From Bryobacterales bacterium (lineage in GTDB: Bacteria; Acidobacteriota; Terriglobia; Bryobacterales; Bryobacteraceae): DNA of 13,311 bases. The notes under the pieces were generated by a model. That model had not been told where the DNA came from and did no database searches. It was given only the letters and a program-made list of their open reading frames with translations. The position numbers and the translations under genes were made by a program. The stretch covers positions 1-13,311 of the forward strand of contig SHUN01000024.1 of assembly GCA_009697495.1 (NCBI GenBank). Reading direction: 5' to 3'. This document shows, piece by piece, positions 3,010-13,311 of the stretch (position 1 is the stretch's first letter; every line of letters begins with the position of its first letter).

Positions 3010-3024
3010 GCCTGTTGCTATCCT

Positions 3025-3054
3025 TTGCAATTGAAATACCGCGTCTTCTAATCA
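3025..3054 (+). promoter_or_regulatory. Candidate sigma70-type promoter for the large flavoprotein gene
   Basis: TTGCAA at 3025-3030 and TAATCA at 3049-3054 are separated by 18 bases, each a moderate match to -35 and -10 consensus. It lies in the divergent gap between the SDR gene and the flavoprotein start at 3210, giving a leader of about 150 bases. The match is imperfect and could be chance. Confidence 0.2.
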
Positions 3055-3209
3055 TTCTGTCTCTTCTTCCGGCATTCGCGCAGGAGAATCCCGCGCCGCC
3101 CCAGTCCTATGCCCGAAAAGTATGGACTTTTATGGGTCCTGCTTCGCCGCCGCCGCGAACGTGGCAAAATAGTAGCTTGGGCCGGATTGTCTCCGCCCGC
3201 TCCCCTCAA

Positions 3210-6200
3210 ATGAAGTCTGGCGATACTCTTTCTCTTTCCTTTGGCCTCCAGTTTGATGACCTCTACACGTCGGAGGGCCTGGCCAAAGTCGACGCCGCTT
3301 TTCAGCGGTTCCTGGAATCCGGCGATGCCGCGCTGCTGCCCCAACTGCAGGCCGCGCGGATCGACCCGAAGGCGCTCGCGCGCAAAGCCGAATCCGAACT
3401 TATCCTCGCGATCGCGCCGCATCTTGAAGATTTTCTGGGCGACTTGTTCCAGATCCAGAAAGAAATCCGCGAGTTGCAGCATAAGCACGAGGAGCTGGCG
3501 CCGCTCTATACGGTGAAGCGAAACTTCGTCCAACGCAAGGCGTTGACAGCGATAAAAGAAGCCGATGCGCAGCATCTGCACGGCAAGACGCTGCGAGTGG
3601 AACTGGAAACGTACATGGGCGAGCCGCTGTCCGAGTTAGCCTACGCGCGCGCCGTCACCAAGTGGCTCGACGATCCGGCCGGACACGCCCACCATCTGGA
3701 TATCGCGTCCAAGTACGCCGCCTGGGCCCACTATTCCAAGCCCGGCAAGGAAAAACATAAATCCGGCATTCTGTTCAAAAAGCCGCACAAGATGGAGTTC
3801 GAGAACCTGATTCCGGTGGAGTCGATTACGGAGAACAACGCGCAACGCTGGGTGTTTCCGGAGCGCGAATGGCGCGCCCGCGAGGGCTTCGGCCTCACCG
3901 ATCCCGGCACCGATCTCACCGGCGCTCTCGACGAAGCCAACTACTGCATCCACTGCCACAATCAGGGGAAAGACTCCTGTTCCACCGGCCTTCGGGAGAA
4001 GACCGGCGAGTTCAAAAAATCGCACTTCGGCGTAACGCTCAACGGTTGTCCCCTGGAAGAAAAAATCTCCGAATTCCACGCGGCGATGACCAAGGGCCAC
4101 ACGGTGGGCGCGTTGGGCATCATCACCATTGACAACCCGATGTGCGCCGGCACCGGGCACCGGATTTGCAACGATTGCATGAAGTCCTGCGTGTTCCAAA
4201 AGCAGGAGCCGGTGGACATTCCGCAGGCGGAAACGCGGGCGCTGAAGGAAGTGTTGAACCTCACATGGGGCTTCGAAATCTATTCGCTGCTCACGCGCTG
4301 GAACCCGTTGAACTTCGTGCGGCCCATGCCGAAAGCCGACACCGGATATAAAATTCTGGTGGTTGGCCTGGGACCGGCCGGATATTCCCTGGCGCATCAT
4401 TTGCTGAATGACGGGCATACCGTCTGCGCCATTGACGGCTTGAAAATTGAGCCCCTGCCGTCGCATCTGTCCGGCGTTGACGCGCACGGAAAACAGACGC
4501 CCTTCAGGGCCATTCGCGAAATTCATGAGATTTATGAGTCGCTCGACGACCGTGTGATGGCCGGTTTCGGCGGCGTCGCGGAATACGGAATTACCGTTCG
4601 CTGGGACAAGAATTTTCTGAAAGTCATCCGGCTGCTGATTGAACGGCGGCGGCACTTCGCCATGTTCGGCGGCGTCCGCTTCGGCGGGTCGATTACCGTT
4701 GACAGCGCGTTCGCCCTGGGCTTTGACCACATCGCGCTGTGCGCCGGCGCCGGCCGCCCCACCGTGATTCCCATGAAGAACGGCCTGGCCCGCGGCGTGC
4801 GGCAGGCTTCTGATTTCCTGATGGCCCTGCAGTTGACCGGCGCCGCGCGCGGAAATTCGATTGCGAATTTGCAGTTGCGTCTGCCCGCGGTCGTGATCGG
4901 CGGCGGTTTGACGGCGGTCGACACGGCCACCGAGTCGTTGGCGTATTACCCCGTGCAAGTTCGCAAGTTCCTGGAGCGCTATGAAGCGTTGTGCGCGCAG
5001 AATGGGGAGCCCGCCGTCCGCGCCATTTGGAACGAAGAAGAAAATCTGATCGCGGACGAATTCCTGGACCATGCCCGCGCCATTCGCGATGAGGATGAGG
5101 CTGCCGCGACCGAGGGCCGCAATCCCGTCTACTTGCGCCTGCTGCAATCCTGGGGAGGCGTCACGCTCGCCTATCGTCGGCGCATGATCGATTCGCCGTC
5201 CTACACCCTGAACCATGAGGAAGTGGCCAAGGCCCTGGAAGAGGGCATCCATTTTGCCGAGTGCCTCTCGCCCGAAGAAGTGGGCGTCGATCGCTTCGGC
5301 CATGCGTTCTCCATCACTCTGTCGAAGCTGGTTTTTGACGCCGAAAAGCAGAAACTTATCCACACGGGCGAGATGGCCACCTTGCCCGCCAAGTCCATTC
5401 TCGTCGCCGCCGGCACACAGCCAAATACGGTGCTGGAGCGGGAGGACAGTAACAATTTCATCCTCGACGGCAAGTACTTTCAGGCGCTGGATGAGAACGG
5501 GGAGCCGGTGAAGCCGGAGCGTGTCGCCAAGCCAAATGAAACGCGCGTGCTGACATCCTTGCGCGCCGACGGGAAAGCCATCAGCTTCTTCGGCGATCTG
5601 CATCCCTCGTTTAGTGGCAACGTCGTGAAAGCGATGGGCAGCGCCAAGCAGGGGTATCCGGTGGTGAGCCGCATTCTGGCCGCCCGCCGCAAGCCCGAGG
5701 GGGTCACCGGGCTTGGGCTGATCGAACAGTTGAACGGGGAAATGCGCGCGACCGTGGAAGAGGTGATTCGCCTCACGCCGACGATTATCGAGATCGTCGT
5801 GAAAGCGCCAATGGCCGCGCGGGCATTCCATCCGGGGCAGTTTTACCGGCTGCAGAATTTTGAGACGATTGCGCCGCGGACGCCGGAAACGGTGTTGGCG
5901 ATGGAGGGATTGGCGCTGACCGGAGCGTCGGTGGATCGGGAGGCGGGAACGCTGTCGACCATCGTGCTGGAAATGGGCGGATCGTCGGATTTGTGTTCGC
6001 TGCTGGCCAAGGGAGAGCCGGTGGTCCTGATGGGCCCCACCGGTACGCCAACGGAGACTCCGGGCACCGAAACGGTGCTGCTGGCGGGCGGCGGTCTGGG
6101 CAATGCGGTGCTGTTCTCGATCGGCCAGACGTTTCGCGCCAAGGGCAGCCATGTTATCTACTTCGCCGGATACAAAAAGGTGATCGACCGGTACAAGGTC

Positions 6201-6731
6201 GAGGAGATCGAGCGGGCGGCCGATGTCATCATCTGGTGCTGCGATGAGGCGCCCGGCTTTACGCCCACCCGCGCCCAGGACAGAGCTTTCGTCGGCAATA
6301 TCGTCGCCGCCATGGAGGCCTACGGCAAGGGCGCGCTGCATGGGGAACTCGAAGAACCCCTGCTCATGATGCAGGATGTGGACCGCGTGATCGCCATCGG
6401 CTCCGACGGGATGATGGCCGCGGTGGCCAGAGCCCGGCACACTGTTTTGGCGCCGTATCTTACGAAGAAACCGCAGGGAATCGGCTCTATTAACTCGCCG
6501 ATGCAGTGCATGATGAAGGAGATCTGTGCGCAGTGTCTCCAACTGCACCGGGATCCGGAAACCGGGAAGGAAACGATCGTGTTCTCCTGCTTTAATCAGG
6601 ACCAATCACTTGATCACGTCGACTGGGCGAGCCTTCGCCAGCGGCTCTCGCAGAATTCGACGCAGGAAAAATTAACGAAGCTATGGATTGATCGCTGCTT
6701 GAAACAGCTCGGAATCCGGCTGGAAAAATAG
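3210..6731 (+). CDS. Fused NfnB/GltD-like and NfnA/PyrK-like Fe-S flavoprotein oxidoreductase
   Basis: About 1173 residues, numbered from ATG 3210. Residues 1-245 are a mostly helical, charged region I do not recognise. A GltD/NfnB-type cysteine module follows (C246, C249, C257, C280, C312, C320, C323, C327), fit to bind [4Fe-4S] clusters. An FAD-binding loop GLGPAG (386-391) and a second nucleotide loop GGGLTAVDTATE (from 564) come next. From about 846 there is a ferredoxin-reductase/PyrK-like module: HPGQFYRLQNFE (874-885) for flavin and LLAGGGLGNAVL (957-968) for nucleotide. C1100, C1106, C1109 and C1127 near the end resemble the [2Fe-2S] site of NfnA/PyrK. By homology it should transfer electrons between NAD(P)H and ferredoxin or another acceptor. 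Whether it bifurcates is unknown. ATG 3210 is inferred from the soluble fold; the frame is open upstream to TTG 3015. Confidence 0.85.
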   Translation: MKSGDTLSLSFGLQFDDLYTSEGLAKVDAAFQRFLESGDAALLPQLQAARIDPKALARKAESELILAIAPHLEDFLGDLFQIQKEIRELQHKHEELAPLYTVKRNFVQRKALTAIKEADAQHLHGKTLRVELETYMGEPLSELAYARAVTKWLDDPAGHAHHLDIASKYAAWAHYSKPGKEKHKSGILFKKPHKMEFENLIPVESITENNAQRWVFPEREWRAREGFGLTDPGTDLTGALDEANYCIHCHNQGKDSCSTGLREKTGEFKKSHFGVTLNGCPLEEKISEFHAAMTKGHTVGALGIITIDNPMCAGTGHRICNDCMKSCVFQKQEPVDIPQAETRALKEVLNLTWGFEIYSLLTRWNPLNFVRPMPKADTGYKILVVGLGPAGYSLAHHLLNDGHTVCAIDGLKIEPLPSHLSGVDAHGKQTPFRAIREIHEIYESLDDRVMAGFGGVAEYGITVRWDKNFLKVIRLLIERRRHFAMFGGVRFGGSITVDSAFALGFDHIALCAGAGRPTVIPMKNGLARGVRQASDFLMALQLTGAARGNSIANLQLRLPAVVIGGGLTAVDTATESLAYYPVQVRKFLERYEALCAQNGEPAVRAIWNEEENLIADEFLDHARAIRDEDEAAATEGRNPVYLRLLQSWGGVTLAYRRRMIDSPSYTLNHEEVAKALEEGIHFAECLSPEEVGVDRFGHAFSITLSKLVFDAEKQKLIHTGEMATLPAKSILVAAGTQPNTVLEREDSNNFILDGKYFQALDENGEPVKPERVAKPNETRVLTSLRADGKAISFFGDLHPSFSGNVVKAMGSAKQGYPVVSRILAARRKPEGVTGLGLIEQLNGEMRATVEEVIRLTPTIIEIVVKAPMAARAFHPGQFYRLQNFETIAPRTPETVLAMEGLALTGASVDREAGTLSTIVLEMGGSSDLCSLLAKGEPVVLMGPTGTPTETPGTETVLLAGGGLGNAVLFSIGQTFRAKGSHVIYFAGYKKVIDRYKVEEIERAADVIIWCCDEAPGFTPTRAQDRAFVGNIVAAMEAYGKGALHGELEEPLLMMQDVDRVIAIGSDGMMAAVARARHTVLAPYLTKKPQGIGSINSPMQCMMKEICAQCLQLHRDPETGKETIVFSCFNQDQSLDHVDWASLRQRLSQNSTQEKLTKLWIDRCLKQLGIRLEK

Positions 6732-6751: not shown

Positions 6752-6991
6752 TCAACCCAAAATACTCAAAATGCTCGCATCGAGTGCAGCGGCAGTTTGA
6801 ACCACCTTGGCATTCACGCCGTGAAGGCTCTTAGCCGCAATCAGCGCCACAACCTCCGCGCTCAAATCCACGACGTCTTCCGGAGCTGACGGGTCTGCCG
6901 AAAAAGGCAAGCGGGATAAGCGCTCGGCAATCCGCTGGACCCGTTCCTCGGCCCGTCCAAGACCCTCTGCGGCTGTCGGAAAACTACTCAT
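6752..6991 (-). CDS. Small protein with flagellar rod-like C-terminal motif
   Basis: A 79-residue protein ending in DVVDLSAEVVALIAAKSLHG followed by VNAKVVQTAAALDASILSILG. The pattern of acidic DLSAEVV, then an alanine-rich helix with NxKVVQTA, then a leucine-rich terminus ending in G resembles the C-terminal helix of flagellar rod/hook proteins (FlgB/FlgC/FlgG type). The N-terminal rod domain is absent and no flagellar genes are near, so this is either a stand-alone relative or convergent coiled-coil sequence. It follows the SWIM gene on the same strand after 56 bases and may share its transcript. No clear ribosome-binding site is seen, and its end converges with that of the flavoprotein gene 20 bases away. 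Confidence 0.55.
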   Translation of the reverse strand: MSSFPTAAEGLGRAEERVQRIAERLSRLPFSADPSAPEDVVDLSAEVVALIAAKSLHGVNAKVVQTAAALDASILSILG

Positions 6992-7047: not shown

Positions 7048-8184
7048 CTACGCCACCGGCTCTCCCAACAAAAACCCAACTGCATGTTGGGAAGCCTTCT
7101 TGTAGATAGGCTCCAGCGCATCCAACAACGGCTTCTGCCCCTGCCAAAACGGAAACGGCCCCAAGCGCCGCGGCAATGCGCACGATATCGGCGGCGGCGT
7201 CACGTCGCCCATCACCTCTTCGGGCAATCGCACCGCGCCCTTCCAAAAGGTGTCCGGCTCAAACGGCAATGGCTGCTTCGGATCTTCAGGCTTTTCTTCC
7301 GCTTCGCCGTTCCGCCCGTTCTCCCCTTCTACTGTCGAGATCTGCGGCAACTGCTTCTCGATCATCGCCAGCAGTTTTTCGCGGCGCATGCCACGCAGCG
7401 CAAATAGTAAAAACGGATCCCGGTCGAACTCTTCGCCCAGCAGCAAATAAACGGCAGCGCTATGCTTACACGGGTTGGCCGTGTCCGGACACGTGCACTG
7501 CGCCTTCAGGTCCCCCTCCGCCGCAGGATAAAGCGATAGCCCTTCTTCTTCAAAAATTTCTTCAATATCGGCCGGCATTTCGCCCGCCAACAGGCGCGCC
7601 GAAAACACCGCCTGCTCCGCCAATCGCCCCGCAATCTTCGCCCAGTCCGCCTCCGGCAGCGAGTGCATCCGCACATCGACTTCATACGGCTTCGGCCGCG
7701 ACCCCTGCACCCTGGCCACAACCTGCCCCTCTTCGATCTGAATGGATAGGACGTGACCTTTCTTCGCGTATTCACGGCCGCGGTTCAGCCGCGATCCCAT
7801 GTCGAAGCTCTCCAACACTTCAATCCAGCGCTGCGCCCACCAGTTTTCGCCGAACTTTCCACCCCGCGATTGCGCCTTAATTCCGCTCGCCCGCTGCGGT
7901 TGACGGCCGTATGGGCTGAAAGGCGTCTTACCGCGAGTCTGCCTCTGCCCCCCCGTCCGCGCATTCCGCTGCGGAGGCCCTTGACGGCGCGCCCGTCCCG
8001 CCGCGCTACGAGGCGGTGCCGCCGCTGGAGGCGGTGTCGCCGCAACAGTCGCCGGAGGCTGGCTCGGCGCGCCCTGTCCGGGGGCCGCCGCTCCCTCCAA
8101 ATTCGGCTTTGCGCCCCGCCGAGGCCGGAAGAACTTCCGGCGTCCAATCCCGCGGCCAGTTCCCCGGCCCCCGCGTTCGTTCAT
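7048..8184 (-). CDS. SWIM zinc-finger protein, partner of the SNF2 helicase
   Basis: A 378-residue protein with a SWIM zinc finger of the form CxCx6CxH at C230, C232, C239 and H241 (QCTCPDTANPCKHSAAVYLLL). SWIM fingers bind nucleic acid or protein partners. In bacteria they are often encoded beside SNF2 helicases, so a joint role in DNA repair or remodelling is likely. Residues 1-100 are low-complexity, very rich in R, G, P, A and Q, and look disordered and basic. Residues 110-225 hold a conserved-looking GENWWAQRWIEVLE start and an RGREYAKKG segment, usual for this family. ATG 8184 is chosen because GGAGG lies about 10 bases upstream and the codon overlaps the helicase stop as ATGA. An in-frame upstream extension to 8259 would lie inside the helicase gene and is unlikely. 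Confidence 0.9.
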   Translation of the reverse strand: MNERGGRGTGRGIGRRKFFRPRRGAKPNLEGAAAPGQGAPSQPPATVAATPPPAAAPPRSAAGRARRQGPPQRNARTGGQRQTRGKTPFSPYGRQPQRASGIKAQSRGGKFGENWWAQRWIEVLESFDMGSRLNRGREYAKKGHVLSIQIEEGQVVARVQGSRPKPYEVDVRMHSLPEADWAKIAGRLAEQAVFSARLLAGEMPADIEEIFEEEGLSLYPAAEGDLKAQCTCPDTANPCKHSAAVYLLLGEEFDRDPFLLFALRGMRREKLLAMIEKQLPQISTVEGENGRNGEAEEKPEDPKQPLPFEPDTFWKGAVRLPEEVMGDVTPPPISCALPRRLGPFPFWQGQKPLLDALEPIYKKASQHAVGFLLGEPVA

Positions 8185-11100
8185 CCGTCTTCCTCCACGG
8201 CCTCTCCGCCCAACGCGAAGACCGACTTGAGTTCCTCGTTCGACAACTCGGTGATCCACTGCTCACCGCTGCCGATCACGTCCTTCACAATGCTCTTCTT
8301 GCGTTCGATCATCTCGTCGATTCGCTCTTCCAGCGTCCCAACGCAAACGAATTTATGGACTTGCACATTGCTCTTTTGCCCGATGCGGAAGGCGCGATCC
8401 GTCGCCTGATCCTCCACCGCCGGATTCCACCACCGGTCATAGTGAAACACGTGATTGGCCCGCGTCAGGTTCAACCCCGTCCCGCCGGCCTTCAACGACA
8501 ATATGAAAATCCGCGGTCCATTCGGCGTGTTCTGGAAACGCTCCACCATTTTCTCGCGTTGCCGTTGCGGTGTCCCCCCGTGCAGGAACAGCACCTCTTC
8601 GCCGTAGCACTGCAGCAAGTGATGTTGCAGAATTTTGCCCATCTCGGCGAACTGCGTGAACACCAACGCCCGGTCCCCTGACTCCATCACCTCTTCCAGC
8701 ATCTCCGTCAACCGCGCCAACTTGCCGCTGCGCCCCGTCGGCGGCGAACCATCGCCCAAATAATGCGCCGGGTGGTTGCACACTTGCTTCAGCTTGGAAA
8801 GAGTCGCCAGAATCACGCCGCGCCGCCCGATTCCATCGGCCGTTTCGATCAGCCGATACGCATCCTTGGCCACCTTCTCGTACAAGTCCGCCTGCTCCTT
8901 CGTTAGCGTGCAGTAGACCTTGGCCTCCATCTTCTCCGGCAGGTCGGCGATGATGCTCGTATCGGTCTTCAACCGGCGCAACAGAAACGGTGCCGTCAGC
9001 CGCCGCAAATTCCCCGACATCGAAGGGTCCCGCCCCGTCTGAATCGGAATGAAAAACGTCTTCCGGAAATGGTCGCGCGTCCCCAGGAAACCGGGGTTCA
9101 GAAATTCCATCACCGACCACAACTCGCCCACATTATTCTCAACCGGCGTACCCGTCAGCGCAATTCGGTAATCGGCCATCACCGCCCGCGACGAACGCGC
9201 CTGCCGCGTCTCCGGATTCTTCACGTTCTGCGCTTCATCAAGAATAAGCCCCGCCCACGGAACCTGCTTGATCGCTTCCAAATCCCGCTGCAACAGCCCG
9301 TAGCTGGTAATCACCAGCGTGTGCTTGTAGGCGAGCTTGGCAAAGTCGTCGCCCTTCTCCCGGCCCACGCCGTGATGCAATAAAACCTTTAATTTCGGCG
9401 TGAATCGCGCCGCTTCCTTCTGCCAGTTGCCCACCACCGATGTCGGGCAAATCAACAGCGTGGGCCGATTGACGCCCTCTTCGTTGTCCAGTTGTAACAG
9501 CGCCAATGCCTGAATCGTCTTGCCCAGGCCCATATCGTCGGCCAGACAAGCGCCCAGCCCCCATTTCCGCAGGAACTTGAGCCACGAATAACCGCGAACC
9601 TGATAGGGCCGCAGCGTGCCCTTGAACTCCGCCGGCGGCGCCAATTCCTCCAGCACCACCCGCCCTTCCAACTGATCCAGCAAGCCCTTCACCCAGCCCG
9701 TCGCGATCACGCCCTCAATCGCCAGCGCCGCGTTGGTCTGATAATTCCCCAACGCCATCTGAATCACTTCCCGCACCGTCGCGTGCCCCGTGACATTGCG
9801 GCGCCAGAAATCCAGCCCGATTCCCAATTCCTCCGGCGTTACGTGAACCCACTGCCCGTTCACTTTGCACAACGGCAACCGCAACCGCTCGAGTTCCAAC
9901 AACTCCTCGCGGCTCACCAGCTTCTCGCCAATCGCAATCCGCCAGTCGAATTCCAGAATGAAATTCAACGACAACCCGCCCTTCGGAGGATCGTCATCGC
10001 TATGCACTTTGGCCCTCGCGCTTAAATGCGCGCGCGTTCCGTCTTTTGACCACCATAGCGGCAGCTCCACCGCGAACCCGCCCTGCTCCAGCGCCACTGA
10101 ACGCTGCGTCAAAAAATCGTATGCCCCCTGCGTGTCGAGTTCGAATCCGGTCGGAACAGACACTCGTAAGCTGGTCTCGATCCGCGGAACAATCGAGGTT
10201 GCCTGCGTTAACGCAGTCAGCAGGAATTCCAGCGTCGGCTGCCGCGTCACGCCCGGCAAACGCTCGCCGGAACCGATCTGTTCCGCCCGCAAGACGTTGT
10301 CCGGATTGTCAACGCTCTGGACCATGTACCGGACCATCCACGTCCCGCTGTCCTCGGCCGGCTCCTCCAGCCGGAAACAGAGACGGAACGGCGCGTCCGC
10401 CGTTAACGCCACCGGACGCCGCCACTGGCGCACCTGCGAAGCGATCTTTTCCAACTGTTCCGGATGCCCCTGCACCAAGCCGTCCTGCGTTGCCAGCGCG
10501 TGCAGCCAACGGTCGTGCGGGCTCTTCCCGCGCGGCGGGTTCTGTCCGGAGAACGAGCCGCGAACCAGATCATCCACCATCCAGGCCAGGAATGCGTCCA
10601 AGACGATTCGCGCCGGCGTGACCGGCGGGCTGTTCTCGTCGAAGCCAATCGCCCGGGCCGCCGCCGGCATCGCCGCCGCCAGCGCCGCCAGCCTATGCCC
10701 CTCCATGCCGGGGTATACCGGTGTCCACTGCGCCGTGAAGCCCTCTTCCACCGCGATCATATCCGGCAGAAACTGCTGCCGCGCGACCAAGCCGCCGGCG
10801 AATCGCAGCGCGGTGATCCAGAAGGTTACATCGGGCCCCACCATCAGCCCCGGCCGGATTACCCGTTGCCCGAAGGTGGCCGCCAAAAAGTCGACAGTCT
10901 CCTTTGGCCCTAATTGCATACTGGCAATGGACCACGGCGCTATGGTGAGCGTTTCGTATTCGGGATGCTCGGCGATCAACGCGCTGGAGGCGAGAGGACT
11001 GTCCGGTGCGCTAGGCGCCCACAAAACAGCACGCTGCATTTTTAACTTTGCCAACTCCCCACAGTACGGAAGAGAGGAAAGTACCTCGCGCAACAGAACC

Positions 11101-11246
11101 GGCGGCGCCCCATATGGATAATCCTGCGGCCCGCCACGAGCCGGCTTTACCTGTTTGGCCGCCCCGTTGTCCTGTCTATGATCCGCCGAAGCCTCCAGCC
11201 AAATGGAGAAGTAGCCGTCGTGAACGCCGGCATGAAGGATCAGCAT
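8181..11246 (-). CDS. SNF2-family DEAD/DEAH-like helicase
   Basis: A complete 1021-residue SNF2/Rad54-type ATPase. Residues 1-530 are the bacterial SNF2-associated N-terminal region, carrying no catalytic motifs. The ATPase core begins around 543 (GTLRPYQVRGYSWLKFL). Motif I is DDMGLGKT (570-577), motif II is DEAQ at 670-673, and motif III is LTGTPVEN (697-704). The second RecA lobe has ALVFTQF (860-866), LKAGGTGLNLTRA (919-931) and motif VI QATDRAFRIGQ (947-957). Such enzymes translocate on double-stranded DNA and remodel protein-DNA complexes; the bacterial ones are implicated in repair or transcription recycling. ATG 11246 has a GGAG about 11 bases upstream. The stop overlaps the SWIM start by ATGA, so the two proteins are translationally coupled. 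Confidence 0.95.
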   Translation of the reverse strand: MLILHAGVHDGYFSIWLEASADHRQDNGAAKQVKPARGGPQDYPYGAPPVLLREVLSSLPYCGELAKLKMQRAVLWAPSAPDSPLASSALIAEHPEYETLTIAPWSIASMQLGPKETVDFLAATFGQRVIRPGLMVGPDVTFWITALRFAGGLVARQQFLPDMIAVEEGFTAQWTPVYPGMEGHRLAALAAAMPAAARAIGFDENSPPVTPARIVLDAFLAWMVDDLVRGSFSGQNPPRGKSPHDRWLHALATQDGLVQGHPEQLEKIASQVRQWRRPVALTADAPFRLCFRLEEPAEDSGTWMVRYMVQSVDNPDNVLRAEQIGSGERLPGVTRQPTLEFLLTALTQATSIVPRIETSLRVSVPTGFELDTQGAYDFLTQRSVALEQGGFAVELPLWWSKDGTRAHLSARAKVHSDDDPPKGGLSLNFILEFDWRIAIGEKLVSREELLELERLRLPLCKVNGQWVHVTPEELGIGLDFWRRNVTGHATVREVIQMALGNYQTNAALAIEGVIATGWVKGLLDQLEGRVVLEELAPPAEFKGTLRPYQVRGYSWLKFLRKWGLGACLADDMGLGKTIQALALLQLDNEEGVNRPTLLICPTSVVGNWQKEAARFTPKLKVLLHHGVGREKGDDFAKLAYKHTLVITSYGLLQRDLEAIKQVPWAGLILDEAQNVKNPETRQARSSRAVMADYRIALTGTPVENNVGELWSVMEFLNPGFLGTRDHFRKTFFIPIQTGRDPSMSGNLRRLTAPFLLRRLKTDTSIIADLPEKMEAKVYCTLTKEQADLYEKVAKDAYRLIETADGIGRRGVILATLSKLKQVCNHPAHYLGDGSPPTGRSGKLARLTEMLEEVMESGDRALVFTQFAEMGKILQHHLLQCYGEEVLFLHGGTPQRQREKMVERFQNTPNGPRIFILSLKAGGTGLNLTRANHVFHYDRWWNPAVEDQATDRAFRIGQKSNVQVHKFVCVGTLEERIDEMIERKKSIVKDVIGSGEQWITELSNEELKSVFALGGEAVEEDG

Positions 11247-11437
11247 GAAAGAACTGTCTCCTCATTGATACCACGAACGGGGGTGTTGGCGCGGGGGGGT
11301 GTTTGCTTTCCAACGGAATCTCGCTCCCGCTACTCGCCCCGAGGTACCCGCGAAAATATGCGCAGTGGCTGATCGTGCTGCCATTTGCAACGCAAAGTAC
11401 GGTCGGCGACTCTCGATTCTCCGCCCGAACCAAATGC
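11247..11437. other. Intergenic gap before the TA islet
   Basis: These 191 bases lie between the helicase start and the end of hicB. The gap should hold the helicase promoter, but I see no convincing -35/-10 pair. A run of seven G residues occurs near 11296-11302. No gene, repeat or RNA could be supported. Confidence 0.3.
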
Positions 11438-11677
11438 CTAAGTTAGCGCAGGCGCGTTTTCTATCGTGATGTGGGGACGGGGATTCGGTAGCGGAACCGG
11501 CAGGCCCTGCTCCGCCAGCAGGCTCACATGCTCCGCAATGCCCCACTTGGCCTTGTACAGACAATCTTCCACGGAGTGCCCTACTCCACTAAAGCCTTCG
11601 ATGTCGGGAGAGTAAAACGAGAAAAAATCGGGTTCCTCATTCGCCTCTATTACGAGCGAATAGCGTAACTCAATCAT
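11438..11677 (-). CDS. hicB: HicB-family antitoxin
   Basis: A 79-residue protein of the HicB (UPF0150) family. RYSLVIEANEEPDFFSFYSPDIEGFSGVG matches the beta-strand core of these partial RNase H-like antitoxins, and SVEDCLYKAKWGIAEHVSLL forms the conserved helix. PNPRPHITIENA gives the closing strand. HicB binds and silences the HicA ribonuclease and usually represses its own operon. The start is firm: GGAGG sits five bases before ATG 11677. The ATG overlaps the stop of a hicA remnant just upstream (ATGA), which keeps the normal hicA-hicB order, but no full toxin remains. The antitoxin therefore looks orphaned. No added DNA-binding domain is present, so autoregulation is uncertain. Confidence 0.85.
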   Translation of the reverse strand: MIELRYSLVIEANEEPDFFSFYSPDIEGFSGVGHSVEDCLYKAKWGIAEHVSLLAEQGLPVPLPNPRPHITIENAPALT

Positions 11678-11763
11678 TGCTTCCTCCCAGCCTCGATTCC
11701 GGCCGCGTTCAAGACTGCATGGCAGGTTCCACTTGGCACTTCTTTTGAACCGCGGAAGTCAAC
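11674..11763 (-). pseudogene. hicA: HicA toxin C-terminal remnant
   Basis: The frame ending in TGA at 11676-11674 encodes VDFRGSKEVPSGTCHAVLNA followed by AGIEAGRKQ. This matches the C-terminal third of HicA toxins, where the pattern is VPxHGxKEhxxGTLxxILxxAGI. The open frame extends back to a stop at 11823-11821, but the extra residues show neither the HicA start nor its GSHxxY active-site region with the catalytic histidine. The first two thirds are missing or scrambled. The stop overlaps hicB by ATGA, just as intact hicAB operons do, which supports a decayed operon over chance. A cysteine replaces the usual leucine after GT, suggesting drift. Confidence 0.65.
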
Positions 11764-11941
11764 GCGAATCAGGTTTTCGTACCCGGCTTTTCGATAGCAG
11801 CCGGAAATTTCAGACCATCGTCATTCCAACGAGCGCTTGGCAGCCGGCAATTGGAACACGAGACCAAGCTCCTCTTCCCTCCCGCGAACGCGCCCAATTA
11901 CGGGAGACTCTTCGCGTATCATCAGGAAGGAGGAGACTTTC

Positions 11942-12211
11942 ATGACCATCACCCTCAAACCCGAAGTGGAAGCCCTGATCCAAAGGCGCCTGGCAAGCGG
12001 GGTGTTCCAAAACATAGACGAAGTCATTTACCGGGCGCTGGAGTCGCAGGACGCCGAGGAATCGTGGCTGCTGCTCCACGAGCGCGAAGTGAGCGAGAAG
12101 ATCGACCGCGCGATCGCCGAAGCCGACCGGGGCGAATGCACGACCCCCGAATTGTCCCGGGCCCTGCTGGAGGAGCAAAAGATGGCATGGCGGCGTCAGC
12201 AGCGCCACTAA
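11942..12211 (+). CDS. parD: ParD-like antitoxin
   Basis: An 89-residue protein beginning MTITLKPEVEALIQRRLASG then VFQNIDEVIYRALE. This is the ribbon-helix-helix start of ParD/CopG antitoxins: a short strand binds DNA and two helices dimerise. The C-terminal part (EREVSEKIDRAIAEADRGE and on) is charged and helical, as expected for the segment that wraps the ParE toxin. ATG 11942 follows a strong GGAGGA seven bases away; an earlier in-frame ATG at 11837 lies in non-coding DNA and is rejected. Its TAA overlaps the ATG of the ParE gene as TAATG, a typical coupled antitoxin-toxin pair. The ParD product normally represses this promoter. Confidence 0.88.
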   Translation: MTITLKPEVEALIQRRLASGVFQNIDEVIYRALESQDAEESWLLLHEREVSEKIDRAIAEADRGECTTPELSRALLEEQKMAWRRQQRH

Positions 12212-12507
12212 TGAGCAGCTAAGCCGTAACGCCCGAGGCGAACGCTGACCTGCTCCGGATCTGGCTCTACATCGCGCGGGATAGCGAGGAAATCGCCGAC
12301 CGCGTGCAAACGGAATTCTATTCCAAGTTCGATTCGCTAGCCCGGCATCCTGGCCAAGGGCATCGGCGCACCGACTATACGAAGGCCAACGTCCTATTCT
12401 TTCCGGTCTACTCGTATCTGATCGCTTACCGGCCCGGAACCGACCCGCTGGAAATTCTCGCTGTCGTGCATGGAGCGCGCGAGGTCAAGAAAGTCCTGAG
12501 GCGTTAA
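12211..12507 (+). pseudogene. parE: ParE-like toxin with TAA nonsense codon at position 4
   Basis: The frame starts ATG AGC AGC TAA GCC GTA: MSS, stop, then AVTPEANADLLRIWLYIARD and on to a normal end at 12507. Apart from the stop at 12220-12222 the 98-codon frame is a full-length ParE/RelE-fold toxin. It has the PEAxxDLxxIWxYIA helix, an [13 protein letters not shown] loop, a YLIAYRP strand and a final [15 protein letters not shown] strand. ParE toxins poison DNA gyrase. TAT to TAA would explain the defect, since a tyrosine is common there. No usable start follows before a GTG at 12304, which would omit both N-terminal helices. The intact body suggests a recent mutation or a sequencing error. 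Confidence 0.82.
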
Positions 12508-12545
12508 TCGCACTACGAAGAATCTTGAATCGAGGCAATCAAAAC

Positions 12546-12725
12546 ATGAGCATATCCCCGGAAAAAATCTGCAGCATGATGATGGCCCACGTCCAGTCGG
12601 CCGCTTTGAAAGGTGGTATCGACCTCGGCCTTTTCACAGCCATTGGCGAAGGCCATAACATCGTCGCCGCTGTGGCCCAACGCTGCGGCGCCAGCGAACG
12701 CGGCGCTCGTATTCTCTGCGATTAT
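12546..12725 (+). pseudogene. Methyltransferase N-terminal fragment
   Basis: From ATG 12546, with GAGG about 10 bases upstream, about 60 codons match the helical dimerisation domain at the start of acetylserotonin-type O-methyltransferases. The peptide has [36 protein letters not shown] and [14 protein letters not shown], the winged-helix-like segment before the SAM domain. After about 12725 the reading no longer resembles the family in any frame, although the frame stays open to a stop near 13157 through DNA that is HepT on the other strand. The SAM-binding GxGxG region is absent, so no methyltransferase can be made. The break point probably marks where the neighbouring MntA-HepT segment was joined. 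Confidence 0.7.
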
Positions 12726-12817
12726 CGGGCGTGTCCGCAGGTCTGCGGGGGCGATTCCCGAATTGCGCGGAACCCGTGTGCCCGCTTCCGCTTGGCAATT
12801 CTCAAGAACAGCTTCGT

Positions 12818-13186
12818 CTATACTTTCTGCCGTTCTTCGCCCCCTCGAAGTTTCCTCAGCGCTTGCTCGGCGGCCGTTTTCAAAGGTGCCAAATCACGCT
12901 CAACCATGCGCCAGAGGCGTACTATATCAATACCGTGGTATTCATGCCGAAGCCGGTTCCCAAGGCCGCGAATATCCCGCCAATCAATCTCGGGGCAAAG
13001 TTCCGGAGCCAGTTCCCCAAGTTTTGCCGCCGCTTCGCTGATGATGAGCAGCGCATGTTGCACAGCGAAGAGTTTTTCCTCATCTCCGCCGAAATCCTCT
13101 AGACTCAGTCCTGCCGTGAATCGTTCGATGCGGTCAACATTGTCCAAGATGTCTTGAAATCGCTACGCCGGGTCGCTAGAAGGCAC
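12818..13186 (-). pseudogene. hepT: HepT-like HEPN toxin with TAG nonsense codon at position 8
   Basis: The frame from GTG 13186 reads MPSSDPA, then TAG at 13165-13163, then [20 protein letters not shown] and on to TAG at 12820-12818, 122 codons in all. The body is a HepT/DUF86 HEPN-fold protein with the ending [16 protein letters not shown], a form of the HEPN Rx4-6HxY active site, followed by the [15 protein letters not shown] helix. The MPS...RLQDILDN start is typical, so the in-frame TAG interrupts a natural N-terminus. GTG 13186 has GAGG upstream and overlaps the mntA end by 11 bases. A start at TTG 13147 would give 109 residues and keep the active site, but it lacks a ribosome-binding site. 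Thus the toxin is probably silent, though a shortened product is possible. Confidence 0.78.
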
Positions 13187-13311
13187 GTACCGCCTCAGCC
13201 TCTACGTTTTTTTGCACACGTGGCTTAAGCGTTCCTTCCTCGATCAAATCAACGCGGACGCCGAGCAAATCGGCAAGCTGATTTTCGATGTGAATGACAT
13301 CGAGCAGCGAA
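13176..13311 (-). CDS. mntA: MntA-like nucleotidyltransferase antitoxin, C-terminal part
   Basis: The last 44 codons of a gene that enters from the right edge are visible, ending in TAG at 13178-13176. The peptide SLLDVIHIENQLADLLGVRV then DLIEEGTLKPRVQKNVEAEA matches the end of minimal nucleotidyltransferases of the MntA family: hydrophobic strand, VDLI, LKPR, then EAxxxF. In the MntA-HepT system this enzyme AMPylates the HepT toxin next to its active-site histidine and silences it. The catalytic GSxxRGxxxxxSDxD motif would lie outside the window, so activity cannot be judged. The order mntA-hepT with a short overlap is the usual one. Confidence 0.8.
   Translation of the reverse strand, partial: SLLDVIHIENQLADLLGVRVDLIEEGTLKPRVQKNVEAEAVRAF

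Follow-up and report, generated by a model that had tools for sequence, protein, structure and literature searches.

A cluster of three toxin-antitoxin modules

The window analyzed here is the entire contig SHUN01000024.1 (C24, 13311 bp) of a draft Bryobacterales genome (G000; 2.36 Mb, 285 contigs, 62.6% complete, probably a metagenome-assembled genome, MAG). Past a helicase gene, it carries genes of three unrelated toxin-antitoxin (TA) modules, in the order hicB and a hicA remnant (minus strand), parD and parE (plus strand), a fragment of an O-methyltransferase gene (plus strand), and hepT plus the 3' end of mntA (minus strand). An earlier note on this DNA had described every toxin as broken and every antitoxin as kept. 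All three lesions it reported are in the sequence: hicA is reduced to its C-terminal codons, parE has a stop at codon 4, and hepT has one at codon 8 (Table 1). The statement on the antitoxins holds for HicB and ParD, which are open, but not for MntA, of which 44 amino acids (aa) can be read here and which is broken in the sister genome G002.

Table 1. Features of the window (feature, position, strand, basis)
hicB antitoxin, 79 aa, open	11438..11677	-	PF15919 E=2.7e-4, under cut-off; relatives in other genera
hicA remnant, C-terminal 29 codons	11674..11763	-	Aligns to C-terminus of intact HicA preceding related HicB genes
parD antitoxin, 89 aa, open	11942..12211	+	TIGR02606 E=5.5e-6, under cut-off
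parE toxin gene, TAA at codon 4 (12220-12222), remaining frame open to its own stop	12211..12507	+	PF05016 E=3e-14
O-methyltransferase N-terminal fragment, ~63 codons	12546..12734	+	Whole 328-aa copy at the equivalent place in G003
hepT toxin gene, TAG at codon 8 (13163-13165), then 114 open codons	12818..13186	-	PF01934 E=1.8e-19
mntA 3' end, 44 codons, remainder past the contig end	13176..13310	-	Contig boundary
Block of hicAB, parDE and methyltransferase fragment, absent at the orthologous place in sister G002	11284..12740	.	Comparison with G002
SNF2-family helicase gene, intact	8181..11246	-	5' end (DNA 10701-11261) is the synteny anchor, matched in 18/19 genus genomes

No complete HicA stands beside HicB in the window. 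The remnant covers positions 46 to 64 of the 65 model positions, and profile scans gave no Pfam or NCBIfam match for it. HicB scores 21.5 bits against PF15919 (cut-off, 27) and has full-length relatives in other genera at 61 to 88% aa identity. It is strongly conserved: pairwise dN/dS was 0.05 to 0.11 in five of ten window pairs with computable dS, dS being about 1 or more. When loci were collected with HicB as the query (14 rows, representing 13 loci), close homologues adjoined an intact HicA at six; only HicA was broken or not found at five, the window included, both genes were broken at two, and HicB alone was broken at none. Two of these homologues, L121 (G050:C2) and L120 (G185:C238), are 86 to 88% identical to the window HicB, belong to other genera of the family, and have no HicA open reading frame (ORF) detected alongside; L120 retains a short HicA-like C-terminal stretch. 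In contrast to these HicA-less relatives, G211 bears an intact HicA, and its HicB is nearer to that of G185 (dN, 0.054) than the window HicB is (0.061), suggesting that the loss of HicA probably occurred repeatedly and may be recent. Because HicA-less and HicA-bearing relatives are both present, the period of HicB as an orphan is not separable from the period in which it was paired, and pairwise dN/dS cannot date it.

The ParD-type antitoxin gene lies in front of parE, with a one-base overlap at 12211, and AAGGAGGAG stands upstream of the parD ATG. ParD scores 26.3 against TIGR02606 (cut-off, 46.2), and its pairing with ParE recurs, with an intact toxin, in relatives. Reading past the stop, the ParE domain is matched over positions 3 to 88 of 89, within 94 open codons. 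There is no uninterrupted ParE ORF, and the next in-frame ATG, GTG, or TTG comes only at 12304. Compared with three intact relatives, the ParE frame has a dN/dS of 0.09 to 0.25, which is still low and akin to that of ParD (0.20 to 0.29). This points to a recent parE stop, although the estimate is rough, as dS there exceeds 1.

The hepT gene starts with GTG at 13184-13186, and the HepT-like domain is recognized from the codons that follow its stop. A TTG-started ORF of 109 aa (12818-13147) lies after the TAG and covers model positions 15 to 114 of 117; total loss of the HepT product is thus likely but not certain. The mntA gene runs into the contig boundary, which leaves 44 C-terminal aa of MntA to read and puts the part with the GSX10DXD motif outside the sequence. 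The RX4HXY motif, as defined for HepT in PMC7641770, is incomplete in the window: the tyrosine is present and the arginine at -5 is absent, as it is in intact members of the same subfamily. For this reason, we rejected the missing arginine as an additional lesion. The subfamily, comprising the window HepT and L084, L087, L092, L094, L097, and L100, has GxGNxLRHxY in place of RX4HXY and includes intact members in the genus, so that a catalytic arginine, if any, would lie elsewhere. Without the RX4HXY arginine, toxicity of the subfamily, and of the window HepT itself, is putative.

The sister genome and synteny in the genus

The sister genome G002 aligns to the contig over 8127 bp at 96.3% identity. 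The alignment is interrupted once, at position 6753; this gap falls in the final codon of an unassigned 79-aa ORF, 22 bp downstream of the 3015-6731 gene, and the helicase matches its counterpart over all 1021 residues. At the same locus, the G002 HepT has three gaps that are absent from the window, and the sole ORF found by the model covers positions 43 to 84 of 117. Its MntA is cut to the N-terminal part, and neither HicAB nor ParDE is present. No HicB relative was found in the G002 genome at E≤1e-8; G002 may have lost both modules or may never have had them. The earlier note had reckoned that relatives with intact toxins and otherwise the same sequence would point to an artifact of assembly. 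Intact relatives of all three toxins do exist in other genomes, but the sister's HepT at the same locus is broken too, with gaps of its own.

Between G000 and G002, HepT and the helicase (480 codons) have a similar dS (0.122 and 0.126), while dN/dS is 0.64 for HepT and 0.12 for the helicase. The numbers of nonsynonymous and synonymous changes also differ (18:9 versus 16:41; Fisher p=0.0017), indicating that HepT is under relaxed constraint. Among the loci fetched, four HepT-MntA loci are common to G000 and G002, and at each of them one species or both have a broken HepT. The lesions are certainly not common to both at three of these four loci; at the window locus, it is the G002 gaps that are not common.

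We then looked at the 17 genus loci fetched at the helicase 5' end. An O-methyltransferase gene follows the helicase at 11 of them, 2 (G013 and G007) end early, and 4, including G002, lack it; G003 has two such genes in tandem. Within the up to 6 kb read at these loci, HicB, HicA, ParE, HepT, and MntA had no match except in G002, and positions 11284-12521 had no DNA match in any fetched relative locus. As the TA genes are seen only in G000 and G002 among these relatives, the modules seem to have been inserted, or to have replaced other DNA, in the lineage of G000 and G002. In L022 (G002:C45), a stretch of 28 residues matches ParE in its C-terminal part (36% identity, E=1e-5) about 0.9 kb beyond the helicase start, just past the broken HepT-MntA, so that TA remnants may extend further in this sister.

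Toxin lesions exceed antitoxin lesions

To count lesions in paired genes, all genomes compared being drafts, we called genes intact or broken by eye and rechecked these calls by ORF coverage. In-alignment stops in MntA rows were rejected as lesions, many being the natural stop, and the fetched loci were read instead. The HepT-MntA set comprised 49 rows, which represent 47 loci; all of these rows except the second piece of G011:C63 were read (48 rows), and MntA was readable at 45 loci, the window and G002:C610 both running off their contigs. Both genes were intact at 23 of the 45 loci, only the toxin was broken at 13, only the antitoxin at 2, and both were damaged at 7, one of them ambiguous. 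Toxin lesions thus exceed antitoxin lesions in this genus (13:2, p=0.007). The ratio became 14:2 (p=0.004) under the ORF-coverage rule, which counts the MntA of G002:C275 as intact despite a missing DXD loop, and 12:2 (p=0.013) if the MntA of G017:C15, which has an altered GS motif, is called damaged. The window module is not exceptional within its own genome: in G000, HepT is broken at five of seven HepT-MntA loci, and all six readable MntA genes are open (this count excludes a contig-end-cut MntA in C276 and two other nucleotidyltransferases).

ParDE was counted across the order. Of 59 rows obtained with ParD as the query, 30 were read; ParE was whole in 11 of these, and in the other 19 it was either broken or not detected. 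With ParE as the query, 30 loci were read among the matches listed, a scope that applies to the ParE side throughout: both genes were intact at 21, only the toxin was broken at 7 (window included), possibly only the antitoxin at 1 (L168), and 1 was ambiguous (L167). The two sets overlap at 11 loci. In their union of 49 loci (ParE side among the matches listed), both genes were intact at 24, only the toxin was broken at 22, only the antitoxin at 1, both at 1 (L154), and 1 was ambiguous; under the ORF-coverage rule, the corresponding numbers were 25, 23, 1, 0, and 0.

For HicAB, family scans of the genus gave in-frame stops in 16/126 HicA rows versus 4/99 HicB rows (p=0.03), although these stops were not inspected singly and some may be natural ends. 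Among adjacent HicA/HicB pairs, matched by hand, a stop was present only in HicA in seven, in both in one, and only in HicB in none; this excludes G002:C107, where a stop-bearing HicB lies 404 bp from the HicA row. As a control, rhodanese (PF00581, 19 genus genomes) had TAA or TAG in 0/111 rows. Its use as a control for all three stops was spoiled by a recurrent single TGA, and TAA and TAG alone were therefore used. This single in-frame TGA occurs in 18/111 rows and 14/19 genomes (G000:C65 included), so that a selenocysteine rhodanese is possibly widespread in the genus.

Overall, the order proposed in the earlier note, in which the toxin is lost before the antitoxin, is backed by the paired counts for HepT-MntA, for ParDE (22:1, among the matches listed), and for HicAB (5:0) and by the adjacent pairs stopped only in HicA (7:0). 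When the toxin-queried sets were pooled without the window, the ratio was 19:3 (p=0.0009; ParE side among the matches listed), a result that comes mostly from HepT.

Probable toxin-first decay and the alternatives

We consider it probable that the cluster represents ordinary toxin-first decay of clustered, acquired TA modules, with lesions of differing ages. Three unrelated modules, probably acquired horizontally, would have settled beside a conserved helicase gene, where most relatives read have an O-methyltransferase. The lesions would be of separate kinds: hicA lost its 5' part, the parE stop is probably recent, and the time of the hepT stop is not fixed. According to general TA logic, losing the antitoxin first would be harmful, while losing the toxin first would be harmless. 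Since the toxin can be lost freely and the antitoxin cannot while the toxin works, lesions should gather in toxins first, with antitoxins following. This asymmetry of harm would be sufficient for an ordered decay, with no need for selection that keeps the antitoxin, and because each module has its own kind of lesion, no joint cause is needed for three in a row. The kept antitoxins would then be passengers, and the broken genes would presumably yield no active toxin.

Several points weigh against such an ordered decay. In the window, MntA is visible only as its 44-aa end. G002:C13 and G016:C8 show the opposite order, with an intact HepT and a broken MntA. At the loci shared by G000 and G002, two of the three readable G002 MntA genes (C45 and C275) are damaged, so that the asymmetry is weaker there than genus-wide, which argues against a strict rule. 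The hepT stop of the window falls inside a G002 gap and may therefore predate the split from G002; a date after the split was dropped on this ground, and the stop is not datable. Sets queried with ParD or HicB favor intact antitoxins, and the ParDE (22:1) and HicAB (5:0) sets, which are partly or wholly antitoxin queried, contain the window itself. The ParE-queried set alone, without the window, gives 6:1 (p=0.125, among the matches listed). No ParE ORF was detected at 7 of the 19 ParD-queried loci counted as toxin broken, and the antitoxins at those loci may thus have another partner. Finally, genes were first called intact or broken by eye on drafts; the ORF-coverage rule then changed one call (L145, whose ParE is cut by a frameshift).

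Alternatively, the surviving antitoxins could be under selection as anti-addiction genes or regulators against related toxins, carried by incoming elements or encoded elsewhere in the genome. We regard this as rather unlikely. It is consistent with the dN/dS of 0.06 between the window HicB and that of G185, where a whole HicA is likewise missing, and with an intact HicB lacking a whole HicA at 5/13 related loci (window included), G050 and G185 having no detected HicA ORF. Other ParE-type toxins are indeed present in the genome, for example, in C54 (46% identity), and anti-addiction has been described for a chromosomal TA system, ccdEch of Erwinia (PMC2654758). However, G211, with its intact HicA, is closer to G185 in dN than the window is, so that the orphan period cannot be isolated. 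Furthermore, MntA is broken at the G002 locus, the HicB relative that is missing from G002 (E≤1e-8) was either lost or never gained, and the locus has no match among the plasmid records searched. In a broader form, TA modules of Bryobacterales would often be disarmed through numerous recent toxin lesions, arisen independently and unlike even in sister species. The standing set of orphan antitoxins left behind would confer a heritable immunity against addiction by elements that enter the cell; this would apply above all to HicB, which is strongly conserved in several genera although no whole HicA accompanies it. Such a generalization is tentative, and we doubt that it holds.

It is improbable that there was no order at all and that toxins were hit by chance during random pseudogenization of a silent cluster. 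The window offers only three genes, MntA of G002 was hit as well, and the adjacent methyltransferase gene is also truncated, all of which would fit chance damage. Yet the genus-wide asymmetry in HepT-MntA and the pooled toxin-queried sets without the window, described above, are not in agreement with it.

That the damaged toxin genes still yield protein, with HepT initiated at the TTG at 13147 and ParE either initiated at the GTG at 12304 or produced by readthrough, seems very improbable to us. The 109-aa HepT ORF and the low dN/dS in the ParE frame would be compatible with continued production. However, no Shine-Dalgarno-like sequence was seen by eye before the TTG, the GTG start would drop 31 ParE residues, the dN/dS of HepT is relaxed, and the G002 HepT ORF spans only part of the model.

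Lastly, stops created by assembly or consensus error, which an incomplete genome in 285 contigs and a cluster at a contig end might suggest and which the earlier note had rightly held to be less likely, are hardly credible given that G002 aligns over 8127 bp with a single gap and the helicase over 1021 residues, that the hicA truncation is no base error and the sister HepT is broken too, and that toxin-only lesions outnumber antitoxin-only ones across many assemblies.

Surroundings of the cluster

A plasmid origin was rejected, as distant blastn with positions 11261-13311 found nothing among 72,556 plasmid records. Flanking repeats of a mobile element were likewise rejected, only pairs of 12 to 15 nucleotides being present within 11200-13311. 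Five long ORFs upstream are open over 3286 codons in total, although an ORF list is open by definition. One of them (3015-6731, plus strand, 1238 aa) combines a pyridine nucleotide-disulfide oxidoreductase domain with a dihydropyrimidine-dehydrogenase-like 4Fe-4S domain. The closest named relatives of the helicase are in MAGs of Candidatus Sulfopaludibacter, Bryobacterales, Bryobacteraceae, and Acidobacteria.

Comparison with known systems

Toxin-first decay has already been published for other bacteria, so the idea as such is not novel. The ccdO157 locus of Escherichia coli (Mine et al. 2009, as cited in PMC2654758, PMC7280312, and PMC7167474) is likewise a chromosomal TA locus whose toxin genes are defective in many isolates, which was read as degeneration; decay and anti-addiction are discussed in PMC2654758, and decay also in PMC7167474. 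It concerns one family in one species, whereas here three unrelated families are adjacent in an uncultured acidobacterial lineage. Among 334 Pseudomonas genomes (PMC7280312), a toxin gene was missing or truncated beside a kept antitoxin, as in the window, in 24/46 xre-res (up to 52%), 10/37 higBA, and 6/41 hicAB loci. Unlike our counts, that survey dealt with homologues of the TA families of P. putida and was mainly antitoxin searched; its excerpts contain no HepT-MntA and no comparison of lesions between sister species. In the Klebsiella pneumoniae complex (PMC7192599), orphan antitoxins lacking a valid toxin are similarly abundant and were taken as degraded loci or possible anti-addiction genes, but they were defined by structural rules for valid pairs and not by paired lesion counts. 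The HepT-MntA module of Shewanella oneidensis (PMC7641770) also has a HepT of PF01934 adjoining an MNT antitoxin; in contrast to the window subfamily, whose GxGNxLRHxY lacks the arginine and whose toxicity is putative, its HepT has RX4HXY. No paired lesion count for Bryobacterales was found in the literature among the top matches listed, and the present one may be new.

Our findings are in line with earlier publications, according to which chromosomal TA modules are inclined to lose the toxin first. The locus clearly illustrates, in a natural setting and with a sister genome for comparison, which parts of a TA module die before others. It also suggests how this sequence of loss might be measured, from paired lesions throughout an order of uncultured bacteria. 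Should the branches of orphan HicB proteins turn out to be under selection, anti-addiction would become testable from sequence.

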